This document shows positions 9,302-42,170 of a stretch of DNA of 64,000 nt, piece by piece; the stretch's first letter is position 1, and each line of letters begins with the position of its first letter. Below the pieces are notes generated by a model. It did no database searches, was not told where the DNA came from, and saw only the letters and a program-made list of their open reading frames with translations. The stretch covers positions 86,206 to 150,205 of the IMG/VR virus record IMGVR_UViG_3300043409_002109; one strand, 5' to 3'. This DNA is from a virus. Made by a program: the position numbers and the translations under genes.

Positions 9302-9313
9302 GCTGGCAGCCTA
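9299..9313. terminator. hairpin between convergent genes
   Basis: Inverted repeat TAGGCTG/CAGCCTA between the convergent adhesin and tail genes; a likely bidirectional terminator although it lacks a long T run. Confidence 0.4.
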
Positions 9314-9330
9314 TCCCCCTTATTCAGTCG

Positions 9331-10341
9331 TTATGAGGCTGCTTTAAGCATTAGTCCGTCTGCTACTGCTGATGTATCCGTGCTTATGCAATGGTATAGA
9401 TCCGTAGCGCCGCTACGGATTGTCTTACCGCTCTGGAAGGACCCCGAGGGATAGATTCCGCGCAACATTCCCATCCGGGAACCGTTAGGCGATACAGATC
9501 CGGAGTTGCGGTGGAAGGCCATAAGGTCCCCTACGAACATCCCGGCTGGAGTCGTGGTAGCTGCCACTGCAGTGCCTGCCTGCATCGTGTGCTTCCGGCC
9601 ACCCGTGTATAGGGTGGAGGTCCCCGGTTGCCACACCATCCCGTGACAGGCTCCAGCTGTGGTGCCGTGGCCAAAAGGGGCTTGTGTAGCATTCGAATTG
9701 AGCCACGCATTAGTCATGATCCCGCTTCCACCCGTAGCCCACATTCCGTAGAGTCGATCGTCTGTCTCCGCGTCAAGCCCCCCGCTTGCAGCGTTCGTCT
9801 GATGAGGCTCCACAATCGCCCCAGAGGATAACCACGCTTGTTGGGTCACGGTTGTCCCGATAAGCTGGAGGAAGATCACCTCCTCCGAGATATAGGCTCG
9901 TACCTTGGCAGTGGTACTATTCCAAGTGGTGCCCGCAGCTCTCCAGTATCCGGAGTTGGTACCGCTCGTGAAGGGTTGAGCGTTTGCCCAGTCGTTCCAC
10001 GCCCCGCGATTCTTAACGATTCCCATCAGCAAGTTAGAAGCCGTGAAGGTATCCGGGGATGCCATAGTAGGAGCAGGCGCCCCACTGTCCCCAGCCCAAA
10101 TAAGACCGGGTGATAGACCCATGCCCGTTCCTCCTGGAGGAGTAGCATAAACAGCTTTAGTAACAGCTACGACCTGTCGATTCCAGGACCAGGTATGAGT
10201 GGCTGCAAGTGCCGTTGCCCGGTAATCGTTGGCCGCTGAACAGGCGGTGTATATAGCGTCCAGGAGACCTTGAATGTCTGAGGAAGCGGGAGAGACATCG
10301 GCCATTCTATAGAATGTAAGAGATGATAGAGGGAGTGCCAT
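9331..10341 (-). CDS. tail fibre / virion protein, 336 aa
   Basis: Not recognised beyond virion character: Ala/Gly/Ser/Thr-rich, many Trp (WSWNRQ, NRGAWNDW, AYISEEVIFLQL), no signal peptide. Begins MALPLSSLTFYRMADVS. It directly follows the repeat-containing fibre gene with start and stop touching, so the two probably form one assembly. GC content is clearly higher than in flanking replication genes, consistent with a module acquired or selected separately. Confidence 0.6.
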   Translation of the reverse strand: MALPLSSLTFYRMADVSPASSDIQGLLDAIYTACSAANDYRATALAATHTWSWNRQVVAVTKAVYATPPGGTGMGLSPGLIWAGDSGAPAPTMASPDTFTASNLLMGIVKNRGAWNDWANAQPFTSGTNSGYWRAAGTTWNSTTAKVRAYISEEVIFLQLIGTTVTQQAWLSSGAIVEPHQTNAASGGLDAETDDRLYGMWATGGSGIMTNAWLNSNATQAPFGHGTTAGACHGMVWQPGTSTLYTGGRKHTMQAGTAVAATTTPAGMFVGDLMAFHRNSGSVSPNGSRMGMLRGIYPSGSFQSGKTIRSGATDLYHCISTDTSAVADGLMLKAAS

Positions 10342-12005
10342 TAGACGAGAGCCCCTGTGGTAGCGGCCGATCCGTTAAATCCGGTGGCCAGTTCTGGTAT
10401 TAGGACGGCTGCGATTGCCATCATGAGGAATGTCCCGACGATTGTGCTTCCAACTCGTTTAAGCACCTGACCGTCCGAGACGGCACCCATTGTAAGGCTA
10501 GTAGGGCCTGAAGTTTCTCGGATTCCTCGCACATCAGGATTGGGATAGGTACCGCCCAATTGCCCACCGGCTGCGCCGGTAGGTGTCCGGCTGTCACTCA
10601 GACGTGAATCATCACCAGCAGCAACCGTTCCTGCAGTAGTTCCAACATTCAATATCGCCGCCCCACCAAGTCCAAGTGTAGTGCGGGCCGTTGATGCGTC
10701 AGCATCATCAATCAGTGAAAGTCCGTATGCTGTAGGGGTAGTACCATTAACCCGAGTCACCGTAGCAGCTGGCCAATCACCTGTAATATCACCTGTCGAT
10801 GTTTTGGATAAGGCTGCGATAGTCCCTAGTGTGGGAAGCCCAGAAAGATCTGAATAGGCTCCGGTTGCTGCGACTGTAGCGAGTCCAAGATTCGTACGAG
10901 CCCCTGCCGCTGTACTGCTTCCAGTGCCACCATCTGCTACTGCTACGTCGGTGCCGCCAGGCCGATAGCCGGCATCGGCGTAGGTCTTGGTCGCCTTCTG
11001 CGTGGCTAGCTTAGCGTCTGAGTCGGCAGCGAGAGTACCGTCCGTGTCTACAGTGACAGATACTCCACCGATCTTGGCTACCCCGGGATTTGGATAAGTT
11101 CCAGATAGGTCTCCAGCAGCAGCTCCTGTTGGTGCACGCGAATCAGTAAAGCGTGAATCATCGCCGGCCGCCACAGTGCCTACAGTGGTTCCAACATTTA
11201 GCACGGCTGCTCCTCCAAGCCCAAGATTGGTCCGTGCAGTGGATGCACTTGCGAGGTCGGAGAGGTTGGAGGCTTTCTGCGCTGCGCCTGTAATCCGGGA
11301 GTCATCTCCTGCTGCGACCGTACCAGCGGTTGTCCCTACGTTAAGGACGGAAGCCCCGCCAAGACCGAGATTCGTTCTTGCGTCAGCAGCGCTACTAGCC
11401 CCAGTACCGCCATCTGCTATGGCTACATCTGTTGAGCCTGGGGCGTAGTAGTCTGTACCGGCGGCGGCGGCCGATAGAATGCCAGCCGCAGCCTTAACAA
11501 CCGTAGCTGTAAGACTGGACCTCTTAATAAGTTTGCCAGTTGTCCCATCAAAGATGGAAACTTCAGAATCGACAGAAGAGGAGGGGCCGACAACATCTCC
11601 ACTTCCGCCCCCGCCCCCACCTGTGGCGTTTAAGGTTGTACCACTCATAGAGAGATTAGTCCCAAGAGTTATTTCTTGTGCTACTCCGCTACCTCCACCC
11701 GCCCCTCTTCCGAGAAGTCTCTCTGCAGTAAGAGAAGTTATGGCCCCTATAGAGTGAGTGTGAGAAGCTGGAGTCTGAGGATCTGCTAAAACCCCAGATA
11801 AGCCAGTTACATCAATTTCATCGGCTCCGCCGTTTTGATGTGACGTTTTATGAGCTGCAGCTGTTGCAGCAGTAGAGATGGCAGGGATGCCATCTGCGTC
11901 AAAATAAAGATAACCCTCTTCGTCAGACCCTATCTTTTTATATTCTATTAGAGAATTCTTATAGGGAGGCGAGGTCCGTGCAGTGCTAACTTTTTGGCGG
12001 CGCAT
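10341..12005 (-). CDS. repeat-containing tail fibre protein, 554 aa
   Basis: Side tail-fibre type protein. Residues about 200-500 contain at least three near-identical copies of a unit (TARTNLGLGGAAVLNVGTT, then GTVAAGDDSR), plus degenerate copies, and two PTGAAxGxLxGTYPNP units. Such repeats form trimeric beta-helical shafts in phage fibres. The N-terminal 120 residues (YKKIGSDEEGYLYFDADG) likely attach to the baseplate; the C-terminus has a hydrophobic segment (GTFLMMAIAAVLIPELA). It lies inside the dnaE interruption. Confidence 0.75.
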   Translation of the reverse strand: MRRQKVSTARTSPPYKNSLIEYKKIGSDEEGYLYFDADGIPAISTAATAAAHKTSHQNGGADEIDVTGLSGVLADPQTPASHTHSIGAITSLTAERLLGRGAGGGSGVAQEITLGTNLSMSGTTLNATGGGGGGSGDVVGPSSSVDSEVSIFDGTTGKLIKRSSLTATVVKAAAGILSAAAAGTDYYAPGSTDVAIADGGTGASSAADARTNLGLGGASVLNVGTTAGTVAAGDDSRITGAAQKASNLSDLASASTARTNLGLGGAAVLNVGTTVGTVAAGDDSRFTDSRAPTGAAAGDLSGTYPNPGVAKIGGVSVTVDTDGTLAADSDAKLATQKATKTYADAGYRPGGTDVAVADGGTGSSTAAGARTNLGLATVAATGAYSDLSGLPTLGTIAALSKTSTGDITGDWPAATVTRVNGTTPTAYGLSLIDDADASTARTTLGLGGAAILNVGTTAGTVAAGDDSRLSDSRTPTGAAGGQLGGTYPNPDVRGIRETSGPTSLTMGAVSDGQVLKRVGSTIVGTFLMMAIAAVLIPELATGFNGSAATTGALV

Positions 12006-12335
12006 TTAGGACTCGTACTCTATCTGAACTGTAGCTTGAGTGGCGACAGAGCCTTTAACGGCAACGTAAAAGGTACCACGCTTGGGATCTGAGCCCTTAG
12101 CTTCTGCGTAAATATTTTCTTCGCTGTCTAAGGGTGATGTAGTTAGGGCATATTCCAAAGGAATATCTAGATCTGATGAGGCCGAAGACGTTTCTCTGAA
12201 AGATACAGCTACGTTTCCAGGATCGTCTAAGATCGCACGTACTCGTTTTATTTGTATTTTTTTAGGTAGAATTATTTCCTCTACTGTCCAAGTAGCACCA
12301 TCTACAGATACTGTAAAGCGTTTACGTGCAATCAT
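12006..12335 (-). CDS. small virion-associated protein, 109 aa
   Basis: Beta-rich, begins IARKRFTVSVDGATW and ends with a typical strand QATVQIEYES; no family recognised. The gene starts 7 bases after the premature stop of the dnaE N-terminal piece (SD TTAGGAACAAG), so ribosomes could pass from dnaE-N into it. It abuts the tail-fibre gene downstream. Likely a fibre attachment or baseplate accessory protein by context. Confidence 0.55.
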   Translation of the reverse strand: MIARKRFTVSVDGATWTVEEIILPKKIQIKRVRAILDDPGNVAVSFRETSSASSDLDIPLEYALTTSPLDSEENIYAEAKGSDPKRGTFYVAVKGSVATQATVQIEYES

Positions 12336-12342
12336 CTTGTTC

Positions 12343-13602
12343 CTAACTTTGAAGCATTTCTTCTGTAAAGATTAGTGGTGTCGCAGCGCGACCTATATTT
12401 AGAAATCTACTAAATAACAAATTGTATTTTATAGGATCTACATGCGTTATGCCAAGTGCATAACATACGAGACTTCCTGCGGCTGAGCCTCGGCCTGGTC
12501 CACTTACTACATCTAATTCATCTTTAGCGTAATTAATAAACCTACTTACAATCAGGATATAATCTGAGAAACCCATTTTTTTAATTGCTTTTAATTCTAG
12601 TGTTAGTCTTTCTCGATATTCTAGAGGAGGTTTTTCTCCAAATCTTTCTGTAAGTTTTTGCTTAGAAAGTTTGGCTAAATATTCCCAGCTAGTACATTCT
12701 AAAGGCAATGGATATTTGGGGTAGTGGTTGGCTGTATCTTTGAAGTAGCTCTTATCATCTATCATATTGGCAATATGAATTGTATTTTGTAAAGCCTCCA
12801 TTGGAATTCCCTGCTCTTGGGCGCGCAACATCATCCACTCTGGAGAACCAACATGTACATCTATTTCTCCAAAAGTAAATCTCTTAGGATTATACATCGT
12901 ATCATTAGTTTGCATACACAATGCCTGTTCATGCAAGGACTTATGTTCTGGGTGAGTATAGTGCGCGTCGTTAGTAAGAATCAAGGGAAGATTTTTTTTA
13001 GCAGCAATTTCCATAAGACCTTTATTCAAAGCCTGCTGCTCCTCATCCCTATGGAGCTGTAGCTCAATAAAGAATCGATCCTTGAAGATATCGCAGTGAC
13101 CATCGATGAGGCGCTCCGCTTCATCTCTACGGTTAAGGAGAATGAGTTTACTGAATGCGCTTCCGAGACAGGCTGTAGTTGCGATGATGCCTTCGTTGTG
13201 CTCCTTGAGAAGAGCGTCATCGGCCCTTGGCTTGTAGAACATCCCTGAGGTATAGGCGTTGGAGCTGATGGCCATAAGGTTTTTCCAACCCACAGCATTT
13301 TGAGCTAATAGAACTAAATGATAGTACTTCTCCCCCATGGCATCTACTTCGCGGATAGAACGATCTTGGACGGTATAGTAAGCCTCTAAACCTAGGATAG
13401 GTTTTATACCAGTCTTCTTGCATTCTTTATAGAATTTGTATGAGCCTGCGAGGTTACCATGATCAGTGATGGCACAGCTTCTCATTCCCATTTCTTTAAT
13501 CTGAGAAGGGAGTTGGTGTATCCGATTAATCCCGTCTAATGTGGAGGTCTCGAAATGGCAATGAAGATGACAGAAAGAATCTGTATTATCTGAAGTAGTC
13601 AT
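12343..13602 (-). CDS. dnaE: DNA polymerase III alpha (DnaE), N-terminal exon
   Basis: Encodes the PHP domain and the start of the polymerase palm. Motifs: HLHCHFE at 12-18, ITDHGNLAG, GLEAYY, ANDAHY-type LTNDAHYTHPEH, and the palm GPGRGSAAGSLVCYALGIT followed by VDPIKYNLLFSRFLN, which in other DnaE proteins directly precedes the catalytic PDxDxDF. Instead the frame runs 13 unrelated codons past NIGRA to a stop at 12343. Exon 1 probably ends at 12385. The unspliced product (419 aa) has no catalytic aspartates. The PHP residues look intact, so a proofreading or pyrophosphatase activity is possible. Confidence 0.88.
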   Translation of the reverse strand: MTTSDNTDSFCHLHCHFETSTLDGINRIHQLPSQIKEMGMRSCAITDHGNLAGSYKFYKECKKTGIKPILGLEAYYTVQDRSIREVDAMGEKYYHLVLLAQNAVGWKNLMAISSNAYTSGMFYKPRADDALLKEHNEGIIATTACLGSAFSKLILLNRRDEAERLIDGHCDIFKDRFFIELQLHRDEEQQALNKGLMEIAAKKNLPLILTNDAHYTHPEHKSLHEQALCMQTNDTMYNPKRFTFGEIDVHVGSPEWMMLRAQEQGIPMEALQNTIHIANMIDDKSYFKDTANHYPKYPLPLECTSWEYLAKLSKQKLTERFGEKPPLEYRERLTLELKAIKKMGFSDYILIVSRFINYAKDELDVVSGPGRGSAAGSLVCYALGITHVDPIKYNLLFSRFLNIGRAATPLIFTEEMLQS

Positions 13603-20962: not shown

Positions 20963-21220
20963 TTACTCTTTTAGTTGTGCAATCCAATCTAGCATTATTA
21001 GTCCTTGTAAGGCCATGCTGTTTCCAATTGTTTCGCCGTTAGTTGTTCGGTCTTTCATAACAATATGAAAGACATTGTGTTTATCCACCGATCTAGTGTC
21101 AGGAGGAACTCCGATTTCCTCGAAGCCCTCAAGCACTAGAAGGTTGGCTATTAAAGATATTTTATCAGAAATAGAGAGACCATACAACTGTTCTCTCATA
21201 ATTTCTATTTTATTTGTCAT
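20963..21220 (-). CDS. hypothetical protein, 85 aa
   Basis: Not recognised. Helical N-half, beta C-half; no Cys or metal motif. Lies between phoH (11-base overlap) and the Whirly-like gene. Confidence 0.55.
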   Translation of the reverse strand: MTNKIEIMREQLYGLSISDKISLIANLLVLEGFEEIGVPPDTRSVDKHNVFHIVMKDRTTNGETIGNSMALQGLIMLDWIAQLKE

Positions 21221-22076
21221 ACTCTTTGCGCGTCCATAAATGTATCTCAGTTGCTAGTTGACAGATAGCAGACCTGTACTGAGTCTTTAATTCTACTATA
21301 GAAGAGATAGGGGACTCCAAGAATGGGGTGCTATCAGCTATGGTGTATAGTCCAGTCTGGTTCAGGGGTACTTTGATATCTATCTGGTTCAGATCACCTA
21401 GCGCAATGAATTTTGAGTTCTCACCCATTCTGGATAGTAGGGTATTCATCTCTGGCCAAGTAGTGTTTTGAGCTTCATCTATTAGGAAGGTGCAGTTCTC
21501 ATAAGTGCATCCTCGGGTCAACTCTAATGGGATGAACTCAAGGTCTTTGTTATCTATCATTTGTTTAAGGTAGTTATCTGCTTTATTTCCTAGGATCTTT
21601 TTAAGAACAATTTCGAAGGAAGCGAGGTATGGCGCATACTTCTCTTCGAACGACCCTGGCACAGCACCGAATGCTTTGCCTTGGCCCACCATTATGGCGG
21701 GCTTACATAGAATAATCTTCTTCTTCTGGCTAAGGTATTGATCAAATGCATAAGATAAAGCTAATGAAGACTTGCCGGTGCCTGCAGCGCCAAGCGCTAT
21801 ATTCACTAAGATGGTTTCGTTGAGAAGGGCCTCAGCAAAAGCAGATTGATGAGCGTCCCGCGTAGTGATGCTCCCTAGCTTATACGTCCCGCCAGCGAGA
21901 ACAAACTCGCCGTTACCAAGATGACGAGCAAAAGCTGTATGTTTTTCATTCATTTCAGAGCGAAAAATTACACAAGAGTTTACTGGTATATAAACTGTCT
22001 CTATGCAGATGCGACGTTTGTCGTACAAGCTTTCAACGAAATAGGAAGGAACAAGAATTTCTTTTACGCAATGCAT
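21210..22076 (-). CDS. phoH: PhoH-family ATPase
   Basis: 288 aa, normal for phage PhoH with an extended N-domain. Walker A GAAGTGKSS at 96-104, LCKPAIMVG sensor-like segment, PLELTRGCTYENCTFLIDEAQNTT holding the RG(R/C)T and DEAQN signatures, GDLNQID and a QYRS arginine region. PhoH is a predicted RNA helicase/ATPase widespread in phages. The gene heads the recombination block: a non-coding gap with hairpins lies upstream and the SD AGGAAAG is well placed. Confidence 0.88.
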   Translation of the reverse strand: MHCVKEILVPSYFVESLYDKRRICIETVYIPVNSCVIFRSEMNEKHTAFARHLGNGEFVLAGGTYKLGSITTRDAHQSAFAEALLNETILVNIALGAAGTGKSSLALSYAFDQYLSQKKKIILCKPAIMVGQGKAFGAVPGSFEEKYAPYLASFEIVLKKILGNKADNYLKQMIDNKDLEFIPLELTRGCTYENCTFLIDEAQNTTWPEMNTLLSRMGENSKFIALGDLNQIDIKVPLNQTGLYTIADSTPFLESPISSIVELKTQYRSAICQLATEIHLWTRKEYDK

Positions 22077-22500: not shown

Positions 22501-22526
22501 ATGATGACGCCCAAAGGCGTCATCAT
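22501..22526. terminator. 11-bp intergenic hairpin
   Basis: ATGATGACGCC / GGCGTCATCAT with a four-base loop directly after the Ub-like gene stop. Possible terminator or transcript stabiliser. Confidence 0.5.
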
Positions 22527-22537
22527 CTTGTTCTATT

Positions 22538-22798
22538 TTAGAACTTGGTACAGTAATGCAGTGCGCCTTTGACCACGCCTGTGGCGCTTACGAGGTCTCC
22601 TGCGTAAACCTGCTCACTATCCCAACGATTCTTATCTACGGTCTGGCCGTTGACAGCAATCTCGTTGTTAATGGAGCAGTCGGCATTATAAACTTCACGC
22701 GCACGGTCAAGCACACGACGAAGGGTTACTACGCTTTCACCCGGGAAATCTAGCTGCTTCTGGCCGTTGCCAGGAAGACGAAGAAATTCTACTTTCAT
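22538..22798 (-). CDS. ubiquitin/MoaD-like beta-grasp protein (Ub-like modifier)
   Basis: 86 aa from the ATG at 22798 (right after the E1 stop). The strand-helix-strand pattern fits a beta-grasp fold: KVEFLRLPG, an acidic strand, VTLRRVLDRAREVYN helix, EIAVNGQTV, then VYAGDLVSATGVVKGA. The AGDLVSxTG turn before the C-terminus resembles the (D/G)GD.V.(I/L)....GG end of MoaD/ThiS. The protein ends with seven residues (ALHYCTKF region) after VVKG, so the tail may need trimming, plausibly by the JAMM peptidase of the same operon. The gene is tightly coupled to the E1-like gene. Confidence 0.68.
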   Translation of the reverse strand: MKVEFLRLPGNGQKQLDFPGESVVTLRRVLDRAREVYNADCSINNEIAVNGQTVDKNRWDSEQVYAGDLVSATGVVKGALHYCTKF

Positions 22799-22800
22799 TT

Positions 22801-23550
22801 TTAATTCTCTGATTGTTCTGTTGTTGAAGCACGACACAAAGATCGTACAGTAAGATTGGGAGCAAAGTGGAACATAGTCCTACGACGGTCTAGCATGTTC
22901 CAAGGTTCACCAGTAGAGTCTTGAATCATTCGATCACACATCTGATGGACCAGGAAAGATACTGTGTTGAATACTAGGGTACTACATATCTTACGATTGC
23001 ATGGACCTTCTGGTGTTTCAGCATCATTCCCTAAGCTGTTAAGCCAAACGTCTACTTGCTCACTATCTAGATTATCTAGAAGATTTACTTGGCCGAAGTC
23101 AAATCCAAGCCTTGTCTCGAAAACTCCAAGAATCTGAGGATTCATCCGGAAGACTTCAGCGACTGCTCGTCTAGAGTCAAAAGAATCTGTAGCCAGAACT
23201 AAAGGTCCGCCTTCTGCAATAGTCGATTCTTTCGAAAAGAATTCTGCATGAGTAGTTACATCTATTTCTGGATTGAATCTGCGGAGTACATGTGCAAGTG
23301 CATCTACCTTTTGCAGGCCTATGTGTTCAACATCATAGGCCTGATTGGGAAGATTGTGTGGCTCGACCTGATCACGATCCCAAAGATCGAAACGAGTAAA
23401 GCCCATTCGAGCTGCTAAGAGAGCAGCATTGCTGCCAACAGCCCCACAGCCTACAACAATAACTCTGCATTCAGCTAAAGCAGGATTAAACCAAGAAGAA
23501 TGTCTTTGAAAACTAACCTTCTTCTCAAATTCAACGGGCGCTTGCGTCAT
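22801..23550 (-). CDS. ThiF/E1-like adenylyltransferase
   Basis: 249 aa, single-domain E1 size (ThiF/MoeB). Rossmann motif IVVGCGAVGSN at 31-41, LWDRDQVEPHNLPNQ with the conserved Asp and the Asn-Leu...Gln region, GLQKVDAL with Lys81, and ATDSFDSR at 120-127. Conserved ATP-contact residues look intact, so it should adenylate a Ub-like C-terminus. Cys184 and Cys189 (GPCNRKICST) are candidates for thioester formation; no CxxC zinc pairs as in MoeB. Flanked by a beta-grasp protein and a JAMM protein, as in bacterial Ub-like operons (for example the PRTRC and Bil types). SD AGGAAAGAAA lies within the end of the JAMM gene. Confidence 0.85.
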   Translation of the reverse strand: MTQAPVEFEKKVSFQRHSSWFNPALAECRVIVVGCGAVGSNAALLAARMGFTRFDLWDRDQVEPHNLPNQAYDVEHIGLQKVDALAHVLRRFNPEIDVTTHAEFFSKESTIAEGGPLVLATDSFDSRRAVAEVFRMNPQILGVFETRLGFDFGQVNLLDNLDSEQVDVWLNSLGNDAETPEGPCNRKICSTLVFNTVSFLVHQMCDRMIQDSTGEPWNMLDRRRTMFHFAPNLTVRSLCRASTTEQSEN

Positions 23551-24847
23551 TTTCTTTCCTGGACTTTTTATTCTTATTCTTATTCTTATTCTCGTAAGCG
23601 TTAACGTTCTTGAGGAAAAGCTTCATCCATTCATTGTCTAGCTCTTTAGCAATTCCTGGCATTCTCTCAGAAAGTTTATAACCAAAAGCAATTTCAGCAG
23701 CAGCAACAAAGAGATCTGCACCAAAGGTGTCTTGCCCTATAGCAAGCTGTCTAAAATCTTCTCTAGCATCTTTATAAGGAGCCATAGAATCAGCGTTCAC
23801 CTTAAAAGCATAGAGAGTTGGAACATCATTCTTGTCTTCTTCGAATAGAAGAGCACTCATAATTTTCCAACAGTACTTAGCTTCTAACGAGTCTGGATCC
23901 CCAAAATACTGATCCATTTCTTTCATGAACCTCGCAGTAGGAACTTCACTAGCTTGAAGTGTCTTAGCGTTTGTAATAGCTTCTGCACATTCAGAAAGAG
24001 TTGGGTAACTTGGTGCGACCCAAGAAAGAATAAATCCATCTTTAATCGAAGTGTTCTGGCCAGTCTGTTTCGTCGTAGAGTCCTGGGACTTTCCACCAGT
24101 GTGGGTTTGCCCCTGCACAGGAAAATTTTTAGTGCCATTACTATTATTGCTACCTCCTGTATAAGCAGTAGAGGTATGAACTCTTGTCTTAATTCTTTCT
24201 TTCAGGAGGGTGTCAATTTTCGCAAAGTCGAATCCATCGGAGATATGAAAGGTGGCATTTTGTACCTCGGCCCCCAAAACCGGATCGTAAAGACGACAAA
24301 AGTATTCATCTTTCTGATTAAGGATTACCATCATAACAGGCTGAGAAGGATTATCTTCTGTGATTTTACGAGCAATCCAATCTTTCCACTGCTCATTATC
24401 AGTACCGCTTGGATTACAAGCCATCTGGACGTGAGAGTGACACCAGACTGCCATACGAGAACAGTCTAGGTTGAATGCTTCTAGAGCTTCATCTCTGGGG
24501 GGGATTCTATTGCCCTCTTCATCCACTGGAGGAACCAAAGTCCCTTCAGTGTTACGAACCATCAGGCCATGACGCTCGCGAAGCTCGAATGCAAGCTTCA
24601 AAAGCATGTTCCCGTCAGTCTCGACTGTTTGTCCAGTAACAGTTTGTTCTGGAATTAGAATATCAGAAATGAAATAGTGAATCATCTTATTCTTATGATC
24701 GACTTCTCTATCTATCATATGAAACCACTGACATTCTTGTGCGTTACACTTAGCAGTTAGATACCTTGCCTGCTCTAGTGCAAATCGATCCCAGGTTATC
24801 TGGTATCGATACCGTGTACTAAGCAGTTCCGGTGTTGTTGCTTTCAT
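23531..24847 (-). CDS. JAMM/MPN-domain metallopeptidase, 438 aa
   Basis: Predicted zinc isopeptidase that would mature the Ub-like protein or remove it from targets. JAMM ligands are visible: Glu38 (AQECQWF), His137-Ser-His139 (WCHSHVQM), then Ser147 and Asp150 in NPSGTD, the HxHx7Sx2D signature. Residues 1-215 form the MPN domain; 225-268 a Ser/Thr/Gly/Gln-rich linker; 270-410 an unknown helical domain; and 420-438 a Lys/Asn repeat tail (NKNKNKNKK) encoded by a TTATTC microsatellite. Overlaps the genes on both sides; SD AGGAAAATA. Confidence 0.85.
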   Translation of the reverse strand: MKATTPELLSTRYRYQITWDRFALEQARYLTAKCNAQECQWFHMIDREVDHKNKMIHYFISDILIPEQTVTGQTVETDGNMLLKLAFELRERHGLMVRNTEGTLVPPVDEEGNRIPPRDEALEAFNLDCSRMAVWCHSHVQMACNPSGTDNEQWKDWIARKITEDNPSQPVMMVILNQKDEYFCRLYDPVLGAEVQNATFHISDGFDFAKIDTLLKERIKTRVHTSTAYTGGSNNSNGTKNFPVQGQTHTGGKSQDSTTKQTGQNTSIKDGFILSWVAPSYPTLSECAEAITNAKTLQASEVPTARFMKEMDQYFGDPDSLEAKYCWKIMSALLFEEDKNDVPTLYAFKVNADSMAPYKDAREDFRQLAIGQDTFGADLFVAAAEIAFGYKLSERMPGIAKELDNEWMKLFLKNVNAYENKNKNKNKKSRKENDASAR

Positions 24848-27308
24848 TATTTTCCTGTTGTTCGTTTAGAACTTTTTCAATTTTTGCAGTTTGATTCACA
24901 AGAATACCTTCGTATTTTGTATAGCCTTTTCGAAGAATACTACCCATTCTTTTCTCTACTTCTGCATTTGCATTTTCTGGAGTTGAAACTACAGTTATAG
25001 TTTTTCCACCTGAAGAAGGAATGATCCAATTAAAGCCTTGCTTTATCATTGATCCGAATCGAATGACTACATCAGGCAAACCATCAGTATATTTTATCTG
25101 ATAGTAAAGATGATTGGTATCATTTGTACTATTAACATAATTGAAAGTTTTTTCTTCAAAAGAATAACTATGAATTAATGTTGGGATTTCAGATACTTCT
25201 GGAAAGTAAGTGTATTCTTTTCCCCAATGATCGGCTGGATCTGCATTACTTACCCAGCTATTCAATGTTAAGAGAATCAAGTTCAAGTCTTCATTCTGAA
25301 AGCATTGCCATAATGCAGTAGTAGCTTCTCCTGCACAAACTCTAGCTGAATGAGTAAACATAGAACTAATACTTGAATAATCTATTGGATTAATTATTAA
25401 TGCAGCTGTATGTGGATGCAATTTAATTGTTCTTAATGCATTCTTATCAACATTTCTCTCTTCTGGACGAACGCCAAAGATTGTATATTTTTCCGCAGGA
25501 AATAATTCAATAGTTGGGCTATCTCCTGGAACAACCATAGAGACTTTGAAAAGGTATGGACCTCCGACTCTAGAGCCCCACTTAGTTTCCCACTCTGGGT
25601 CTCTTGCTCCTACTCTAATCTTATTAGGCCGAATTGTCCTAGCAATAACTTGATGAAGGAACCAGTTGCTGTTCAAAGAGCATTCTTTATTTTTAGAAAC
25701 ACTTTCAATTGCACCAGAGACTTTATTCTTATAAAGAACATCAAGAACTATCCAGTTCTGGCGTAACCAAATCTGTTGAATATTAGGTAAGGTTTCAATA
25801 CCCAATTCTTTAAGAATATCATCTTGTGAAACTGCAGATTTTAGAGCTAATTCATTCAGAATATCAAAATCTTTTTTAACTTGATCTAATTTTTTCTGCT
25901 GAGCATCTAAAGTATTATTCCAATTTTTAATTTCTTGTTCTTTAGCTAAGAGTATTCTTTTTAGCTCCTTTAATTGATCTACGTTAGCCTGTCTAATCGC
26001 AAGTATTTGATTGCGTTTAGACTGATGCTGCTTGTATATAGATTCAAATTCAAGAACATTTTTCTCTTTATTCTGGGCAGCATTTAAATTTCTTTTAAAA
26101 TTTCTACCAGATTCTGTTCTTACTAGAAGTTTAGAAAAATTCATATTTTGCCAAGATTCACTTGGTAATATTTTTTTTTCTAAAAGAATATTCTCATATT
26201 TTGACTGTATTTTTAGAGTGGAATTAATTTTTTCTAAGGTAGTATACCAAGATTTACCTAAGGTATTTATTTGATTAGGAAAAAATCTTTTAACTTCTTT
26301 ATATCTCTCAACCAAAATAGGATGATTTTCTAAAGATGTTCTTTGTCTAGCTAAATCTTTGACTAAGATATCTAGAGCCTCGGTTAAAATAAGATTTTCT
26401 TTCTTATCGAGGTCTGAATAAGAAGTATTAAAATGGATTAGCTGAGTTATAGAGACTTCTTCATAGGTCCCTGAAGAAGGATTTATTACTAAAACGTTTC
26501 TTCGTATTGGGATGAACATACCAGGCTGATAATTTCCTAACGCTATCTTCTCGTTTGAAAATTCAACTTCATTTTTAGAATTAGACTTTACAAGTAAGAC
26601 ATTAGTTCTATGTGACGGGCCACAATTGTTTATTAGTTCTTTGAGATATTCTTTAGGAAGTAAACTGATAGGTCCATCTTCGTCTACCCAGCCTTGATAT
26701 AACCCTATTTTTAACCTACGATTTTCAGCATTAAGATTTAAATTTTTATTATTAACTCTTTTTGTTGTCCAAGTATTAGGAAGTATGAAGCTCATATCTA
26801 TTTGAGGTTCAACTAGATCGGGATATATCTCTTTAATAGAAGGTGGAATAAGATTATATTCATCGAATACTAAAGGAGTCACATATATTGTATCAGGATA
26901 TGGCTGATAAGCAGATAGCTTTTGATCTGGATCCTTAGTATAAGATGAAATAGGATCATCTTCTTCTGACTGTTGTACTATCCAAAAGATACTTGAAGAA
27001 CTTGAATTCTGCTTTAATTTTATATTCGACAACGAATATCTTGATCTTAAATATTCGAGATTATCTACTTTTGGGCTGCCACTAGGCTTTAGTAATATAT
27101 CTTCACTTAAAGATATAAATTTATTTTCACTTAGATTAAGTGTATATCTGGCAAGACTTTTAATTATTGGATCAAAGTCTTCATTAAAAGGATGTCCAGA
27201 TCTTGTAGCGTTTGCCTGCAGTAAAGAAGGGAAAGCTAAAACAAATCGAGAAGAATGGAGCGGGCGGGATCCAAGACTAGGAAGCGCATGACGAGAAGTA
27301 GAATACAT
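24819..27308 (-). CDS. large operon protein with E2-like C-terminal signature, 829 aa
   Basis: No full-length family recognised. Residues 1-400 are beta-rich; 405-485 a coiled coil (KELKRILLAKEQEIKNW); 550-700 shows an arrangement reminiscent of UBC/RWD (E2-like) folds: a strand pair, IELFPAEKYTIFG, HPH at 631-633, ARVCAGE with Cys658, a Trp-containing helix, then a LLTLNSWVSNADPADHW helix like the region after the E2 active site. If correct, Cys658 would carry the Ub-like thioester. Position between the JAMM gene and two unknown partners supports a conjugation role. The E2 reading is inference and should be tested by structure prediction. Confidence 0.55.
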   Translation of the reverse strand: MYSTSRHALPSLGSRPLHSSRFVLAFPSLLQANATRSGHPFNEDFDPIIKSLARYTLNLSENKFISLSEDILLKPSGSPKVDNLEYLRSRYSLSNIKLKQNSSSSSIFWIVQQSEEDDPISSYTKDPDQKLSAYQPYPDTIYVTPLVFDEYNLIPPSIKEIYPDLVEPQIDMSFILPNTWTTKRVNNKNLNLNAENRRLKIGLYQGWVDEDGPISLLPKEYLKELINNCGPSHRTNVLLVKSNSKNEVEFSNEKIALGNYQPGMFIPIRRNVLVINPSSGTYEEVSITQLIHFNTSYSDLDKKENLILTEALDILVKDLARQRTSLENHPILVERYKEVKRFFPNQINTLGKSWYTTLEKINSTLKIQSKYENILLEKKILPSESWQNMNFSKLLVRTESGRNFKRNLNAAQNKEKNVLEFESIYKQHQSKRNQILAIRQANVDQLKELKRILLAKEQEIKNWNNTLDAQQKKLDQVKKDFDILNELALKSAVSQDDILKELGIETLPNIQQIWLRQNWIVLDVLYKNKVSGAIESVSKNKECSLNSNWFLHQVIARTIRPNKIRVGARDPEWETKWGSRVGGPYLFKVSMVVPGDSPTIELFPAEKYTIFGVRPEERNVDKNALRTIKLHPHTAALIINPIDYSSISSMFTHSARVCAGEATTALWQCFQNEDLNLILLTLNSWVSNADPADHWGKEYTYFPEVSEIPTLIHSYSFEEKTFNYVNSTNDTNHLYYQIKYTDGLPDVVIRFGSMIKQGFNWIIPSSGGKTITVVSTPENANAEVEKRMGSILRKGYTKYEGILVNQTAKIEKVLNEQQENNESNNTGTA

Positions 27309-27823
27309 TATATTTCAAATCCTTTTAATATTATTTGTTCATCTATATTTTCGTCGATAGCATTAACTAAGAATTTGAATTGATTTTCACTGATCTTTAC
27401 GTCAGGTAGAATCTCATAATTTTTTAGTAATAGCTGGATATTAGGTTCAAGTTCGCCTTGAGCTTTATATTTTAGTATCAATAGTGTTGGGTGAGGCCGA
27501 AGAGAGCTTAACTCTATTAAGAATTTCTTTCTTAGAGTTTCACGATGCGAAGGAGTTATATTATTTTGAAATAATATTTTAATTCTTTGATAAAAATTCT
27601 TAGTTAATCCAGCCATAGCTTTTTTTCTTTGAGTTTCGTTCCACGTCTTTGTGGCTCTTGTGCTAGGATAATTTTTAGGTATAGAGAGAGAAAACTTCTC
27701 CCTCTTTCCATATTTAAATTCTGGTAAAGTTTTATCTGGTATTAAATAAAAATTCTTGTAATCGTCATCCGTATTTTCAGTCGGTGTTATTGGAACAAAC
27801 TGAATCAATTGATTAAGACGCAT
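27308..27823 (-). CDS. unknown protein of the Ub-like operon, 171 aa
   Basis: Not recognised. Basic N-half, helical C-half, no Cys. Its stop overlaps the start of the 829-aa gene by one base and its start overlaps the 211-aa gene by 11 bases, so all three are co-translated and probably form one complex. Confidence 0.6.
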   Translation of the reverse strand: MRLNQLIQFVPITPTENTDDDYKNFYLIPDKTLPEFKYGKREKFSLSIPKNYPSTRATKTWNETQRKKAMAGLTKNFYQRIKILFQNNITPSHRETLRKKFLIELSSLRPHPTLLILKYKAQGELEPNIQLLLKNYEILPDVKISENQFKFLVNAIDENIDEQIILKGFEI

Positions 27824-28418
27824 CTTTTTCCACGGCTATAAGGGCGATGACATACAATCCAACATTGGGCGCTATGTCATCAATAAATATTTGAGGATGT
27901 TTAATCATAGGTAGTAGCTCTTTGGGTAAAACTAGACATCCTATTTCAGTTAGGATTCTTTTAGTATCTAAGAGAATATCTATGATTTTTTCAATCTCTT
28001 CATTTTTAGATTGAAGAGTTATTTCTAACTTGTAACGAATCTTATGATATTCGATCCAGAGTTTATTAAAAGTAGATACAAGATTATATTCGTAATCAGA
28101 GAGTAATCGAAGTACTTCTGATTGAATATGAATCTTTAGCGAGTTAAGATTAGGGATTCGATTTGTATTACGTAAACGTACTTGTACTAATCCATTAATA
28201 TAATAATTTGCTTCTATTTCAATTCCGCAACTTTTTAAGTTTATTATCTCACTAGGAGATAATCGATTATATTCATTTCTTTCTAGGAATGTTGCAGGAG
28301 ATCCAGCGAATGCTAAACTTAAGCATTCTTGTGGATCCAACCTCAAAGAAATGTTGTTACTCTGGCCCTTTGTTATCAGAAGATTCGTATTTCTCACTAT
28401 CCAAGGGATAGAGTTCAT
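27813..28418 (-). CDS. unknown protein of the Ub-like operon, about 201 aa
   Basis: Not recognised. Start placed at Met11 of the longest ORF (28418), which has a GGAG SD seven bases upstream. Beta-rich N-domain (LDPQECLSLAF, YYINGLVQVRLRN), helical middle, hydrophobic C-terminus (NVGLYVIALIAVE). Coupled to the 171-aa gene. Confidence 0.6.
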   Translation of the reverse strand: MNSIPWIVRNTNLLITKGQSNNISLRLDPQECLSLAFAGSPATFLERNEYNRLSPSEIINLKSCGIEIEANYYINGLVQVRLRNTNRIPNLNSLKIHIQSEVLRLLSDYEYNLVSTFNKLWIEYHKIRYKLEITLQSKNEEIEKIIDILLDTKRILTEIGCLVLPKELLPMIKHPQIFIDDIAPNVGLYVIALIAVEKDAS

Positions 28419-28572
28419 TTTGAATCTCCATGATAAAAGATGGAGCATCTTTTATGTCATAGACTAATAAAGGAAAGCCACACTCTTCACACAATAGTCT
28501 TTCTGGTAGAATTTCTAATGCTTGAGCATAACCGCAGTTATCTAGATCTATACAATAAACTTGATATAACAT
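28357..28572 (-). CDS. small CxxC protein, 71 aa
   Basis: Start at 28572 (MLYQVYCIDLDN), because the longer ORF would begin inside the hairpin at 28591-28607 and AGGTCAAAAG is a usable SD. Has LLCEECGFPLL, half of a zinc ribbon, and Cys7/Cys13. Overlaps the downstream gene; probably the first cistron of the Ub-like operon. Function unknown. Confidence 0.5.
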   Translation of the reverse strand: MLYQVYCIDLDNCGYAQALEILPERLLCEECGFPLLVYDIKDAPSFIMEIQNELYPLDSEKYESSDNKGPE

Positions 28573-28623: not shown

Positions 28624-28818
28624 TTAATCTTCATAACGGGTAGGAGTATCCATCCGAAGGATGGCGCGAGTAAGATAAGTATTATTTACTCCCTCTGCTC
28701 GAAGAGCGCGTCTAGCGTTGCGTGCTTCATCACGAGTAGACCAACGGCTATGCACCTTGGTGGTACTGGTCCAGACTGTGTATATGTAGAGCGGAATAGT
28801 GTTCATTTCGATAATCAT
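28624..28818 (-). CDS. hypothetical basic protein, about 60-64 aa
   Basis: Not recognised. Arg-rich helix (RDEARNARRALRAEG). The start could be the first Met or Met5. Lies between the Lon-like gene and the hairpin before the Ub-like operon. Confidence 0.5.
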   Translation of the reverse strand: MIIEMNTIPLYIYTVWTSTTKVHSRWSTRDEARNARRALRAEGVNNTYLTRAILRMDTPTRYED

Positions 28819-28826
28819 TTGTTCCT

Positions 28827-30563
28827 TTATCTACAGAAACCTATAGAAGGTTTATGTAGAATATTTTGTTTGAAAACTGTATCAATAAATTCTTTATTGA
28901 TAGTTTGATTTGTTTTTTCATAAGCGTAGATGTTTGTAGCAGCTACTCTTAAGAGTCTTCGGACGCGCTGTTCGATCTGTCGAACTTGTTTTATTTTGGC
29001 AAGCTCAGAGAAAGCTTCGTCGGTCCATTCAATTGGTAATGTTTTAATATTGTAGTCAAGAACTATCTTGGGCAGAAGATAATCATTTAAGATTTTATGA
29101 CGTTCTTCATATTCATATTCTCTAAATCGAATGAACTCTAATCTGTCTTTAAGAGCTTCAGGTATTCTATCTTCATAGTTTACTGTAGCAACGAATAGAA
29201 TCTTGCTAAGATCTACCTCTAACTCTATATAGCGATCGATAAATTCTTTATTTTGAGAGTTATCTAATGCGCTTAAAAGAGCTGATGCGGCTGAACCTCT
29301 ATGAGTATCAAGTTTATCTAGTTCATCCAAGAGTATACAAGGATTCATTGATCCAGCATTGCAAAGAGCATTGATAATTCTTCCGCATTTACTACTGATG
29401 TATGTTCTTCTGTGACCTACTATATCGGCTTCATCACCGATACCTCCTAAGCTGACGGTCTGGAAGGACCGTCCAGAAGCTTCTGCTAAGGTCCTAGCTA
29501 TACTGGATTTACCTGTTCCTGGAGGTCCAGATAAGCAGATAATAGCTCCTGAACTATTACCTTTAATCTTTTCTATGCACATATGTTCAATCAGATAATC
29601 TTTTACATCATCTAGACCATAGTGGCTTCTGTTAAGATCTTCTCTTAATGCTTTTAGAGAGAAATCTCTTTCTGAACTTTTGCCCCATGGGATTTTGAAT
29701 ACCCAGCTAAGATAATCTTTTAGCATAGATGCTTCGGTTGAATTTCCTGGCATCGAATCTAATCTACTTATTTCCTCAGAAATTTTTGGGCGATGCATCT
29801 CTGGGAAAGCTGTTATATCCAATCTTTCTTTATAAGAAAGATTCTTAGAAGAAGATGTATTACGCTCTTGTTTCTCTATCTTAGAATTAGTAGCAGGTGA
29901 TTTCTTTTTGTGTTTTCTTTCCATAACAAGATCACTAATTTGAGTAGTGGTCATAAGCCATCTTTCTAAATTAGATTCTTCTTGAAGATACTTAATTCTA
30001 GATTCTTTTTCAGAGAAAACATAATCTGCCATATAATCCATACGACGGAATAAGTTTACTTCTTCTGTTAAGAGATTACATAAAGTCTGTTCAAATATAT
30101 CAGAGTTTTTAGAGATGACTTTAGATAGAGCTTCAATATCTGCATAGATACCATGTTCATCATCTTCTAACTCTTCTATATAAAATTGAGTAGTACAATA
30201 GATTCTAGAGAGTCCATCAGTATCTATATCTAAAATAACATCTTCAGTAACGAATGCGCGTCCTTCAATTTTAATTGTATATAAAGACATCTCATCATTG
30301 ATATCTTCAGGCTCTGTTATAGAGCCTAATAATCCTATGTCATATACATTATCTAGATACTCTCCAAGATCTTCCATCATTAGAGATGTGTCTCTAGTTT
30401 TGGGTATAGCAAAGAGAATGCGACGTTTAATTTGATCTCTTCCTAAAGAAAATTCTACAGGAGAAAAATACTTTAGACGTTCATTCGAAATTAATAAGTG
30501 AATTACTTGTCCAGGGATAGGTATGTCATCATTTAATTCTAATACGTAAACGGGATAGTTCAT
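28827..30563 (-). CDS. Lon-like AAA+ protein lacking the protease domain, 578 aa
   Basis: Lon N-domain (residues 1-200, starting PVYVLELNDDIPIPG with the IPGQVIHLLI pattern), linker, then a complete Lon-type AAA+ module: Walker A SGPPGTGKSS at 345-353, SLGGIGDEADIVGHRRTY, Walker B ILLDELDK near 410-417, VATVNYEDRIPEALKDRLE with Arg finger, and RQIEQRVRRLLR. True Lon continues for about 200 residues with a Ser-Lys protease; here the protein stops after the ATPase. It may unfold or remodel substrates, or act as a decoy of host Lon. It sits next to the Ub-like operon. Confidence 0.85.
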   Translation of the reverse strand: MNYPVYVLELNDDIPIPGQVIHLLISNERLKYFSPVEFSLGRDQIKRRILFAIPKTRDTSLMMEDLGEYLDNVYDIGLLGSITEPEDINDEMSLYTIKIEGRAFVTEDVILDIDTDGLSRIYCTTQFYIEELEDDEHGIYADIEALSKVISKNSDIFEQTLCNLLTEEVNLFRRMDYMADYVFSEKESRIKYLQEESNLERWLMTTTQISDLVMERKHKKKSPATNSKIEKQERNTSSSKNLSYKERLDITAFPEMHRPKISEEISRLDSMPGNSTEASMLKDYLSWVFKIPWGKSSERDFSLKALREDLNRSHYGLDDVKDYLIEHMCIEKIKGNSSGAIICLSGPPGTGKSSIARTLAEASGRSFQTVSLGGIGDEADIVGHRRTYISSKCGRIINALCNAGSMNPCILLDELDKLDTHRGSAASALLSALDNSQNKEFIDRYIELEVDLSKILFVATVNYEDRIPEALKDRLEFIRFREYEYEERHKILNDYLLPKIVLDYNIKTLPIEWTDEAFSELAKIKQVRQIEQRVRRLLRVAATNIYAYEKTNQTINKEFIDTVFKQNILHKPSIGFCR

Positions 30564-39545: not shown

Positions 39546-41042
39546 TTACTTATTTAAAGTTTCTTGAACAGTCATTAGTTTTTCTTTCATTTCTGGAGAA
39601 AGAACTTCGTTGAACCGACTACATTCTTTCCAACTCATGCGTGCATGAGTACGTACTAGGTTGAAGTAGTCAAACTGATAGTCTACTGGACCTTGATCCC
39701 AGATGACTTCAAGAAGATCATCTAGTGTTTCAAGGTAAGGGAAAACCATCAAGTTAGCTTTATTAAGATCATGGCTTTCATAACAAACAGAGAAATTGCC
39801 AGGCAGACTGATTTTAGTTACGTCACTTGATGGACGCTTCATAATGGGTTTTACAGTACCATCTTGAAGTTCTATTTCACATGCCTTGATAGCAGCCTTT
39901 AAGGTGTCCCTATTCTGTTTCTGAAGTAGTCCGCCACCCATACCATAGGCAACACACTGAGCGCTATAGCCAGCTCTGTAAACAGCATCTGCGATGGTTC
40001 CTATATCTTGCAATTCAAGACCATCACCTTGGATAAGACCAGCGCCATTGATAACTCGGTAACCCAAAGAGTTTTTGGTGCTGCCAAATGCCTTTTCAAG
40101 ATAGAATAATCCATCTAGCACTGCCTGCTGGGGGTCTCCCGAATCAGGTCGTACTACAAAGAACTGGTTCTTTGCGCGGCAAGGCTCAACAATAAGAGGA
40201 AGAATTTCTTTAAGAAATCTATGATAATCATAAGAATCAGCAACCACAGAAAGGATAGCACCCTCAGGAGACTTCTCAATAAGATTGAGAATAGCTTTGA
40301 GTTCGGAATCCCAAGTGGTCATAACAGAATGCTCTGTGGCAATGACAGACTGACCGATAGGAACCCCAGCATTCCACTTGGTAGCAAGCCAGCCTGCAGT
40401 CATGGTATCTGTGCCTTCAAAGAACAATAAATGGCCAATACCTGTAACCATAGCAGTCTCAGCGGAACTCGTGCCGCGACTGCCGAAGTCATGGAACCTA
40501 CTATCAAGTAGAAAGTGAGAGTCAGGATCTACAGTCTTTTCAAAGTAGAACTCAAGACAATCACGGACTAAGGCACTCTTAGTAGCAGTACATGAAGGCG
40601 ACCATAGCCGCATTAGACGAGATTCCAAGAATGTAACTAATCCCTGATAGGGCGCTTTGGCAGAAATGACAAAGCAAGGTATGCCTGGGTGTACGCACTG
40701 TCCTTCTCGAAGAGATCGGATTGTGACAGGCCAATACCCATTGTTCTCTTCAATTACCTTAATAAACAGATCACGAGGATATTGATACTGTGTACCAGCC
40801 ACACCATGATGGGCCAAGTATTCATCAGCTTCGTAAATATCTTCCATTGTAATGGGGACACTCAAGAAGGATTCGTACATCCATCTCATACCGAAGAAGA
40901 CAATTCTACTATCTTCTATGGGGAGTGTATTACCTCTGAACGTGAAATAAGCATTAATTCTTTGAATATCTGGAGAATATTCTTCAGGATGACCCATTTT
41001 GTAAGAATCAGCATCTAATAGTGTTGGAATATGTATATTCAT
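39546..41042 (-). CDS. nadV: nicotinamide phosphoribosyltransferase (NAMPT)
   Basis: Converts nicotinamide and PRPP to NMN. 498 aa, normal length. Signatures: LLDADSYKMGHPEEY, HDFGSRGTSSAETA, EGTDTMTAGW, ATEHSVMTTW (catalytic His), VADSYDYHRF, VVRPDSGDP, INGAGLIQGDGLEL, YGMGGGLLQKQNRDT. These cover the phosphoribosyl pocket and the Asp that selects nicotinamide. Preceded by the 23-base leader repeat. The next upstream gene is the NMN adenylyltransferase, giving a complete two-step NAD+ pathway. Confidence 0.92.
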   Translation of the reverse strand: MNIHIPTLLDADSYKMGHPEEYSPDIQRINAYFTFRGNTLPIEDSRIVFFGMRWMYESFLSVPITMEDIYEADEYLAHHGVAGTQYQYPRDLFIKVIEENNGYWPVTIRSLREGQCVHPGIPCFVISAKAPYQGLVTFLESRLMRLWSPSCTATKSALVRDCLEFYFEKTVDPDSHFLLDSRFHDFGSRGTSSAETAMVTGIGHLLFFEGTDTMTAGWLATKWNAGVPIGQSVIATEHSVMTTWDSELKAILNLIEKSPEGAILSVVADSYDYHRFLKEILPLIVEPCRAKNQFFVVRPDSGDPQQAVLDGLFYLEKAFGSTKNSLGYRVINGAGLIQGDGLELQDIGTIADAVYRAGYSAQCVAYGMGGGLLQKQNRDTLKAAIKACEIELQDGTVKPIMKRPSSDVTKISLPGNFSVCYESHDLNKANLMVFPYLETLDDLLEVIWDQGPVDYQFDYFNLVRTHARMSWKECSRFNEVLSPEMKEKLMTVQETLNK

Positions 41043-41047
41043 TTTAA

Positions 41048-41070
41048 CCTCTTTATGAGTTTTGTTACGA
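41048..41070. repeat. 23-bp leader repeat, copy 1 (before NAMPT)
   Basis: Minus-strand sequence TCGTAACAAAACTCATAAAG plus AGG just upstream of the NAMPT ATG; identical to 42177-42199. It includes the SD (AGAGG). Probably a shared regulatory leader. Confidence 0.7.
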
Positions 41071-41084
41071 TTGCGAGCTTATGC

Positions 41085-42170
41085 TCAGGTTCGAAGACAC
41101 ATTTCAGCTATAATTGAACTGTGATCTTCGAAGATTATCTCAGACATATTGCCTAAGATTTCGTTTAGCGGAATGAATTTGCTCTTAGCAGCATCATCAT
41201 CAGCACGATGAGTAACTTCTAGAACATCAGGGATGCGCCACAAGTAACCTTCTGTGATTGTACGACCTCGTTGACTCCGCAAAGGATGATCAAAAGATCG
41301 TACTTGCTGGATCCATGCTGAATCCATTGGTACTCGGGTTGTTCCATTCTTTGTATGTCTGAAGATCTCAATATGAGTCTCTTCTTGAAGTTCACGTTCA
41401 GCTGCTGCTCTTTTGGTTTCATTAACATTCAAGAACCCACCTGGTAGCGCCCAGAGGCCCATACCAGGACGATGGCGGCGCTGAATCATAAGTACCATTC
41501 CACGCCATAGCACTATGTTATCTACCGTTTGAAAAATAGGAGGATAGGGCAAAACCCGATATGGCTCTTGATAGTTCTGTTCAAATTTATACTCTTTGCG
41601 TAGCCAATCAGCTTTAGTATCTAGAATCCAGAAATTGAGATAATTATTAACCCCAGGAGAACAATCTGGATAGGTCTGATTAAGAGGGCCAGTAAGAAGT
41701 TCTTTGCGTACATCAGTGGCGTTATAGATTTTAGTCCCTAGTTCAACGGGACTAATCTCTATACGATTCCATTGAGGGAATATCTTAAGATAATAACTAG
41801 TATCATCTTTATTAAAACCATAGAGAGTGATTTCGAAGTTATTTTCTTCACCGCTTTTAGACCATAGTCTAAGATTTTTCTTATTGTTTTCTATGGCATC
41901 TTGGATAGCATATTGCCATCGAGTATCTGAGTAAGGATAATCTCGGATACCTTGAAAGAACATTCTTTCGAACTCTTCTTTTGTAAACGCTTGGTGAAAC
42001 ATTTCAATACGTTCATGAACATTGAATGGACATCTAGTATTAGGTGCCTGATAGGCAGAACCTAATAAGATTATGACAGCATCTTGTTCTGCAAGTATCT
42101 GGCGAACAACTGCTTCATGGCCCTTATGAAGGGGAGAAAATCGGCCTATGAAGACCCCGACACGCATCAT
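41085..42170 (-). CDS. nadM: bifunctional NMN adenylyltransferase / NUDIX hydrolase (NadM-Nudix)
   Basis: 361 aa. N-terminal nucleotidyltransferase (residues 1-180): VGVFIGRFSPLHKGHEAVV with the HxGH motif, and NATDVRKEL near the end of the fold replacing ISSTxxR. C-terminal NUDIX domain (205-355) with GGFLNVNETKRAAAERELQE then ETH. Same fusion as cyanobacterial and phage KVP40 NadM. Makes NAD+ from NMN and hydrolyses ADP-ribose or similar. Together with NAMPT this forms a salvage route like the reported NARP2 counter-defence pathway. Confidence 0.9.
   Translation of the reverse strand: MMRVGVFIGRFSPLHKGHEAVVRQILAEQDAVIILLGSAYQAPNTRCPFNVHERIEMFHQAFTKEEFERMFFQGIRDYPYSDTRWQYAIQDAIENNKKNLRLWSKSGEENNFEITLYGFNKDDTSYYLKIFPQWNRIEISPVELGTKIYNATDVRKELLTGPLNQTYPDCSPGVNNYLNFWILDTKADWLRKEYKFEQNYQEPYRVLPYPPIFQTVDNIVLWRGMVLMIQRRHRPGMGLWALPGGFLNVNETKRAAAERELQEETHIEIFRHTKNGTTRVPMDSAWIQQVRSFDHPLRSQRGRTITEGYLWRIPDVLEVTHRADDDAAKSKFIPLNEILGNMSEIIFEDHSSIIAEMCLRT

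Follow-up and report, generated by a model that had tools for sequence, protein, structure and literature searches.

Does a bacterial virus carry its own machinery for attaching ubiquitin-like proteins to targets and removing them again? This question is raised by a six-gene operon at 22538-28418, on the minus strand, of a 64,000-base window (the whole stretch of DNA analysed here), which spans bases 86206-150205 of the 150,205-base virus record IMGVR_UViG_3300043409_002109. Most of what is known of prokaryotic conjugation of ubiquitin-like proteins (Ubls) comes from bacteria and archaea, where it serves in part as an anti-phage defence. An initial annotation of the locus had proposed a phage-owned set for Ubl-type protein modification, and this is the best-supported reading: a Ubl, an E1-like enzyme, an E2-like protein and a JAMM metalloprotease are all encoded, and the locus is probably a phage operon for both Ubl conjugation and deconjugation. 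The basis for this is in silico, and combines homologies, active-site residues, the Ubl fold, operon order and wide linkage across phages. Because the window also contains genes for a DNA polymerase, a ribonucleotide reductase, UvsX, an RNA ligase and tail-fibre-like proteins, we take its source to be a large tailed phage.

Components of the proposed ubiquitin-like operon

The open reading frame (ORF) listing confirmed the six minus-strand ORFs with tight overlaps described initially, and the motifs then cited (GCGAVGS, DSFDSR and HSHVQMACNPSGTD) were all found in the sequence. The genes run in the order 201-residue protein, 171-residue protein, 829-residue protein, JAMM, E1 (ThiF) and Ubl. 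The E1-like adenylyltransferase (22801..23550, 249 residues), which has one adenylation domain, matches Pfam ThiF at 8.1e-25. An alignment including 26 relatives from phages showed Cys184, Asp122 and Arg127 to be invariant (27/27), while the glycine-rich loop, D58, D60, N66, Q70 and K81 were kept in 26 of the 27 sequences. The protein is thus predicted to pair a transfer Cys with an adenylation domain, as an E1 of a Ubl system would. The JAMM metalloprotease (23531..24847, 438 residues) gives a weak match to Pfam Prok-JAB (0.0059), and its Glu38, His137, Ser138, His139, Ser147 and Asp150 are invariant across 25 aligned phage members, with the patterns used for retrieval covering part of the HSHV motif and the Glu38 region but neither Ser147 nor Asp150. 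As far as a motif can tell, this intact JAMM signature would fit a Ubl-specific isopeptidase. Since the JAMM catalytic residues are kept in 25/25 and the three E1 residues in 27/27, the operon proteins are not chance reading frames, and the ThiF match together with the intact catalytic residues bears out the E1/ThiF and JAMM identities first assigned. IMG/VR scans with the window E1 or JAMM singly returned no relatives, so that two-sequence or clade alignments were required; a seven-sequence E1 alignment yielded no usable pattern.

The last gene of the operon encodes the Ubl (22538..22798, minus strand). Read from a GTG, its ORF would give 99 residues (22538-22837); the more likely start is the ATG at 22798, two bases past the E1 stop, which gives 86. 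Just 3' of the gene, a terminator-like hairpin read from the sequence (about 22501..22526) closes the operon. Searched alone, the Ubl matched ThiS at 0.013 only. A profile built from phage Ubls with the window protein removed matched it end to end (3.9e-7), scoring 30.4 bits in isolation, compared with 11.7 bits for the best of 5000 shuffles. When a small Ubl alignment was compared with PDB sequences, TtuB, ThiS and SAMP2 made up the first four matches (E 0.006-0.03). Finally, an AlphaFold 2 model of the protein (predicted local distance difference test, pLDDT, 86) adopted a beta-grasp, and a Foldseek search with this model recovered ThiS (2.5e-4), MoaD, SAMP1, NEDD8 and ubiquitin, in silico support for the fold that had been proposed for this small protein.

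In the window Ubl the Gly is followed by 8 residues (tail ..SATGVVKG-ALHYCTKF), so that processing would leave the C-terminal Gly typical of a Ubl. Related Ubls from the same phage clade end mostly in ..ATGSVKGN, and nearly all phage Ubls of this type have at least one residue past the Gly. Tandem Ubls are also common, often within the window's clade: about 18 distinct phage proteins contain two or three repeats and the 383-residue ORF of L195 contains four, with KGN at most junctions between repeats. Further tandem proteins lie, for example, at L028 8235-8648, L151 7239-7913 and L047 2264-2896. These caps and junctions call for a maturation protease, for which the operon JAMM is the obvious candidate, and imply that it would trim the Ubl after the Gly of KG. 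As a separate observation, one protein of a crAss-like phage (L004 2350-3276) joins a Ubl-like N-terminal region to a C-terminal domain of ribosomal protein L7/L12 (5e-12).

The 829-residue protein (24819..27308) has an N-terminal region of unknown function, a probable coiled coil and a C-terminal E2-like domain (25080..25763, residues ~516-743). Alone, it matched nothing in the initial family-library scans. Among its relatives, the ORF adjoining JAMM/E1 on the same strand bears the motif [HNQ]PH..C-x-G in 69/116 loci, compared with 2/551 of the other ORFs longer than 200 residues. A hidden Markov model made from phage E2-like cores without the window protein matched residues 558-743 of the latter (3.6e-11), and hhalign aligned the window domain to its close clade with a probability of 99.2 and an E value of 2.9e-19. 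The E2-like features of the domain comprise a GGPY strand, HPH (631-633), the predicted catalytic Cys658 and a helix with a conserved D; across the family the predicted catalytic Cys is invariant (48/48). At the level of sequence there is thus good support for calling the 829-residue protein E2-like, with a Cys of the catalytic type that is conserved.

Homology of this phage family to true E2s is weakly supported. In a comparison of the core-family profile with the PDB, four of the five best matches were ubiquitin-conjugating enzymes with their active Cys aligned, each at an E value of only 0.6-1.5, and the UBE2N alignment spans the NPDDPLG motif of that enzyme. UQ_con was the sole Pfam family matched by two E2-like members (0.0045). 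A PDB search with a long E2 alignment was dominated by coiled-coil matches. AlphaFold 2 modelled the window domain with a mean pLDDT of 77, and about 90 in the core. Some phage cassettes have two E2-like genes (L083, L129, L135, L139, L141 and others), and the order E2-E2-J-E1-U (J, JAMM; U, Ubl) occurs in nine clusters.

Distribution of the cassette and its neighbouring genes

More than 100 distinct relatives were collected, and clustering of their E1 sequences at 95% gave 111 clusters. In 80 of these, E1, E2-like, JAMM and Ubl genes all lie within 6 kb; the cassette clusters are mostly on viral contigs, from environmental and gut phages, and the gene order varies (U-E2-J-E1, E2-J-E1-U, U-E1-J-E2). 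E1 and JAMM occur together in 180/184 loci, a pairing that counts as independent evidence because nearly every locus was retrieved by one of the two. A single, non-exhaustive search with two short JAMM motifs through 84,980 genomes of bacteria and archaea gave 10 loci, all on metagenome-assembled contigs, and the family therefore looks largely viral. Cultured carriers of relatives include crAss001, in which ThiF adjoins a "metalloprotease domain" protein, Flavobacterium phage FpV4 and Xanthomonas phage PhiXhv-12; for crAss001 and FpV4 the search matched the E1 alone and the neighbours are those of the annotation. In ten loci (L002, L008, L015, L017-L019, L021, L022, L026 and L027) a long ORF (375-456 residues) lies shortly downstream of E1; Pfam identifies that of L002 as a reverse transcriptase (RVT_1 2.3e-15), and the others look alike by eye.

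The window belongs with a clade of large-phage contigs of up to 162 kb (L151, L160, L161, L164, L166, L169, L174, L187-L204 and L219), which have in common a four-Cys protein, an E2-like protein of 700-1115 residues, JAMM, E1, one or more Ubls and, where seen, PhoH. The closest layout is that of L194, with an AAA+ protein of 567 residues, a 62-residue protein, a 171-residue protein, an E2-like protein of 702 residues, JAMM, E1, a Ubl ending in SKGNA, and PhoH. This 171-residue protein of L194 is a homologue of the window's 201-residue protein, in the same place (30% identity over 142 residues, 3e-15). The latter (27813..28418, from an inner ATG in an ORF that opens at 28448) has no family match. 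The window's own 171-residue protein (27308..27823) is an orphan: none of the fetched loci has a homologue, and the family libraries gave nothing convincing. The idea that the two are split-off pieces of the relatives' large E2-like proteins was not supported by comparison. Thus, of the two partners listed initially as unknown, one remains an orphan and the other has a relative; likewise, what had been taken for an undescribed composition built on an 829/171/201-residue trio includes, in its largest protein, a local member of a conserved phage E2-like family, and the operon is not a one-off, as the cassette recurs across phages.

The conserved block is also wider than the six genes noted initially, with three further genes upstream and PhoH downstream, all on the minus strand. 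The first of these encodes a 71-residue, probably zinc-binding protein with four Cys (CxxxxxxC...CxxC; 28357..28572), which is conserved upstream of the E2-like gene; a profile from relatives that left the window out matched it at 6e-4 (19.6 bits, against 12.9 for the best of 5000 shuffles), and blastp against its L189 counterpart gave 1.7e-8. Next comes a small syntenic gene for a 64-residue protein (28624..28818), which by eye resembles the 62-residue gene of L161 and is positioned like that of L194; it separates the cassette from the AAA+ gene. The latter encodes a Lon-type AAA+ ATPase that lacks a protease domain (28827..30563, 578 residues; Walker A GPPGTGKSS, C-terminus ..PSIGFCR), whose Lon AAA region matches at 2.4e-100. 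Lon_C was not found anywhere in the virus record. Of 16 clade contigs tested, 10 have the AAA+ gene (E <1e-69), a short way upstream of the cassette; the syntenic homologues are 33-48% identical, and none of the full-length clade copies has a protease domain. On the other side of the operon, the PhoH-like ATPase (21210..22076; Pfam PhoH 1.6e-38) is syntenic in the clade.

A ClpP-like protein (3.4e-32) is encoded outside the window, at 74342-74839 of the record (L225 1462-2115). It has no obvious head genes adjoining; Ser and His are present, and the region of the usual Asp looks altered. ClpP occurs in 12/17 clade contigs, compared with 1-2/17 of the other large Ubl phages, a link weakened by the clade being one lineage and by several ClpP carriers lacking the AAA+ gene. 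We weighed whether the C-terminal [IV]GF seen in the AAA+ proteins might be an IGF motif for docking to ClpP, but do not count it as evidence, as it may equally be a remnant of the Lon AAA/protease junction.

Two further features of the window lie apart from the cassette. At 5126-13602 (minus strand), the DNA polymerase gene (phrog_405) is split at a catalytic motif into a 5' part (12343-13602) and a 3' part (5126-7282). Just before the 3' part, at 7322-7647, Rfam places a group I intron (86.8 bits), and the approximately 5 kb between the parts includes a gene for a tail-fibre-like protein (10341-12005) as well as ORFs on the plus strand. A gene-bearing intron, trans-splicing and mis-assembly are alternative accounts of this arrangement. 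At 39546-42170 (minus strand), a nicotinamide phosphoribosyltransferase is paired with a nicotinamide-nucleotide adenylyltransferase/NUDIX-like protein, which probably form a pathway rebuilding nicotinamide adenine dinucleotide (NAD+), possibly with a counter-defence role.

A proposed pathway and its alternatives

From the established chemistry of these families, we infer the following steps, including the maturation site, the substrates and the purpose. The primary product would be a Ubl precursor, which is a single unit with a short tail in the window phage and consists of tandem repeats in relatives; JAMM would cut this precursor behind the Gly of VKG. E1 would then adenylate the freed Gly and hold the Ubl on Cys184, from where the thioester would move to Cys658 of the E2-like domain, which would load target amines, possibly on host, virion or replication proteins; JAMM may also be able to take the Ubl off targets again. 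The N-terminal part of the 829-residue protein and the four-Cys and 201-residue proteins would probably select substrates, in an E3- or adaptor-like manner, and the neighbouring AAA+ ATPase may process tagged proteins. The most likely purpose would be to reprogram proteins of the host or the phage in the course of infection, which we favour because the cassette tends to sit among phage core genes. It is conceivable, if speculative and rather unlikely, that poly-Ubl precursors are processed by JAMM and conjugated via E1 and the E2-like protein to proteins of host or phage, and that the tagged proteins are unfolded by the AAA+ protein and possibly fed to ClpP, as a counterpart of the ubiquitin-Cdc48/proteasome route; co-occurrence in one lineage is the extent of the support for this.

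Several results count against a conjugation operon. There is no recognised E3, and the Ubl scores under the Pfam ThiS cut-off. For the model of the E2-like domain, Foldseek gave no significant PDB match (best E 0.7), and the matches it did find were uncharacterised viral proteins only (best 2e-13). The E2-like Cys region that had been noticed initially in the 829-residue protein is hence upheld as a conserved family, while its assignment as an E2 draws on profiles and a motif, and the ubiquitin-conjugating (UBC) fold is not confirmed.

Among the alternatives, the one that survives best, at a low probability, is that the set acts against host Ubl immunity by sequestration, competition or reversal, whether that immunity is Bil-like or that of Cap2/Cap3 in cyclic-oligonucleotide-based anti-phage signalling systems (CBASS). 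Bacterial anti-phage defence does use Ubl-type conjugation (CBASS, PMC10097602; other operons, PMC11354881), the window E1 and JAMM match the PADLOC E1-E2 and JAB models, and the phage set shares with Cap2/Cap3 its E1-, E2- and JAB-type chemistry and an E1 sequence match. The phage E1 and E2 are, however, unfused, and a Ubl and an E2-like protein of its own are more than a decoy requires. In addition, the neighbours tend to be phage core genes (primase/uracil-DNA glycosylase in crAss-like phages, PhoH/AAA+ here) and not known anti-defence genes; a PADLOC scan, which covered 10 proteins of the record, found no CD-NTase.

We consider it doubtful that the Ubl is a sulfur carrier of the ThiS/MoaD kind, converted to a thiocarboxylate for thiolation of transfer RNA (tRNA), nucleotides or cofactors and merely matured by JAMM. 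The nearest solved relatives of the Ubl are ThiS, MoaD, TtuB and SAMP, the E1 resembles ThiF, and public phage records often label the activator (E1) gene thiamine biosynthesis; a Ubl fold and an E1 adenylation domain are indeed what the set shares with ThiS-ThiF and MoaD-MoeB. Nevertheless, the phage set has JAMM and E2-like partners, and no sulfur-transfer genes among the scanned neighbours: in the conserved block we saw no sulfurtransferase, rhodanese, thiamine, molybdenum cofactor or tRNA-thiolation genes. By reading, the window E1 lacks a CxxC zinc pair, and sulfur transfer is not known to involve an E2-like partner with an invariant Cys, such as is conserved here.

Defence of the host against superinfecting phages is less probable again. 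Ubl operons defend bacteria and mobile elements bear defence cargo, but this set is kept across a large phage clade, adjoins replication genes in crAss-like phages and, in the single two-motif scan, is near-absent from bacterial genomes (the 10 matches in 84,980). A tail-tip (TAPI/TAPK) pair for virion assembly is very improbable: although a phage Ubl-JAB association is known (PMC1779556), the gene content already contradicts it, as the JAMM is not fused to NlpC/P60 (JAB-type match only), there is no TAPJ neighbour, and E1 and E2-like proteins are present. The neighbourhood is thus none of the non-Ubl sets, thiamine, molybdopterin or tail-tip, against which the initial annotation had proposed to check its reading.

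Relation to known systems and implications

The PRTRC cassette, which we take to be an operon of type 6d, has a stand-alone Ubl, a single-domain E1 and separate E2-like and JAB genes, as does the phage operon. The likeness in sequence is weak (window E1 against PRTRC_ThiF, 3e-4; crAss JAMM against PRTRC_A, 0.024), and falls far below the curated cut-offs (20.2 against 144.75 bits for PRTRC_ThiF and 14.2 against 101.8 for crAss PRTRC_A); PRTRC_A was not found in the window, and PRTRC_B and PRTRC_C gave no match. The operon described here differs in being phage-borne, in the fusion of its HPH-motif E2-like domain to a large N-terminal region, in the KG-N tails of its Ubls and in its AAA+ and PhoH neighbours. 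Like BilABCD (PMC11354881), it combines a Ubl, E1, E2 and JAMM with C-terminal processing of the Ubl. The Bil E1, however, has two adenylation domains (inactive and active), whereas the window E1 has one in 249 residues; BilA consists of two fused Ubls and the window Ubl is single; and the Glu/His/His spacing of the BilB CEHH motif was not found, by reading, past Cys658. Bacterial PolyUbl operons (PMC11354881) resemble the window's relatives in having tandem Ubls with JAB and E1, but in them JAB is fused to E1 and the E2 domain is reported to be inactive, whereas the phage genes are separate and the Cys is conserved.

A 2006 study by Iyer et al. (PMC1779556) predicted bacterial operons with separate genes for Ub-like, JAB, E1, E2 and alpha-helical proteins (type 6d) and, for phages, describes the TAPI/TAPK pair. 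An overview of jumbo phages (PMC7824862) does not describe a Ubl or JAB system, and a full-text literature search, whose coverage left out most subscription papers and bioRxiv preprints, found no description of the phage cassette, which we therefore regard as provisionally new.

If this reading is correct, bacterial viruses run their own reversible protein tagging, with tandem Ubl precursors, and this would be widely conserved. It would also change how a "thiamine biosynthesis" gene is read in well-studied phages such as crAss001. As crAss001, FpV4 and PhiXhv-12 are cultured carriers, the question is testable now.
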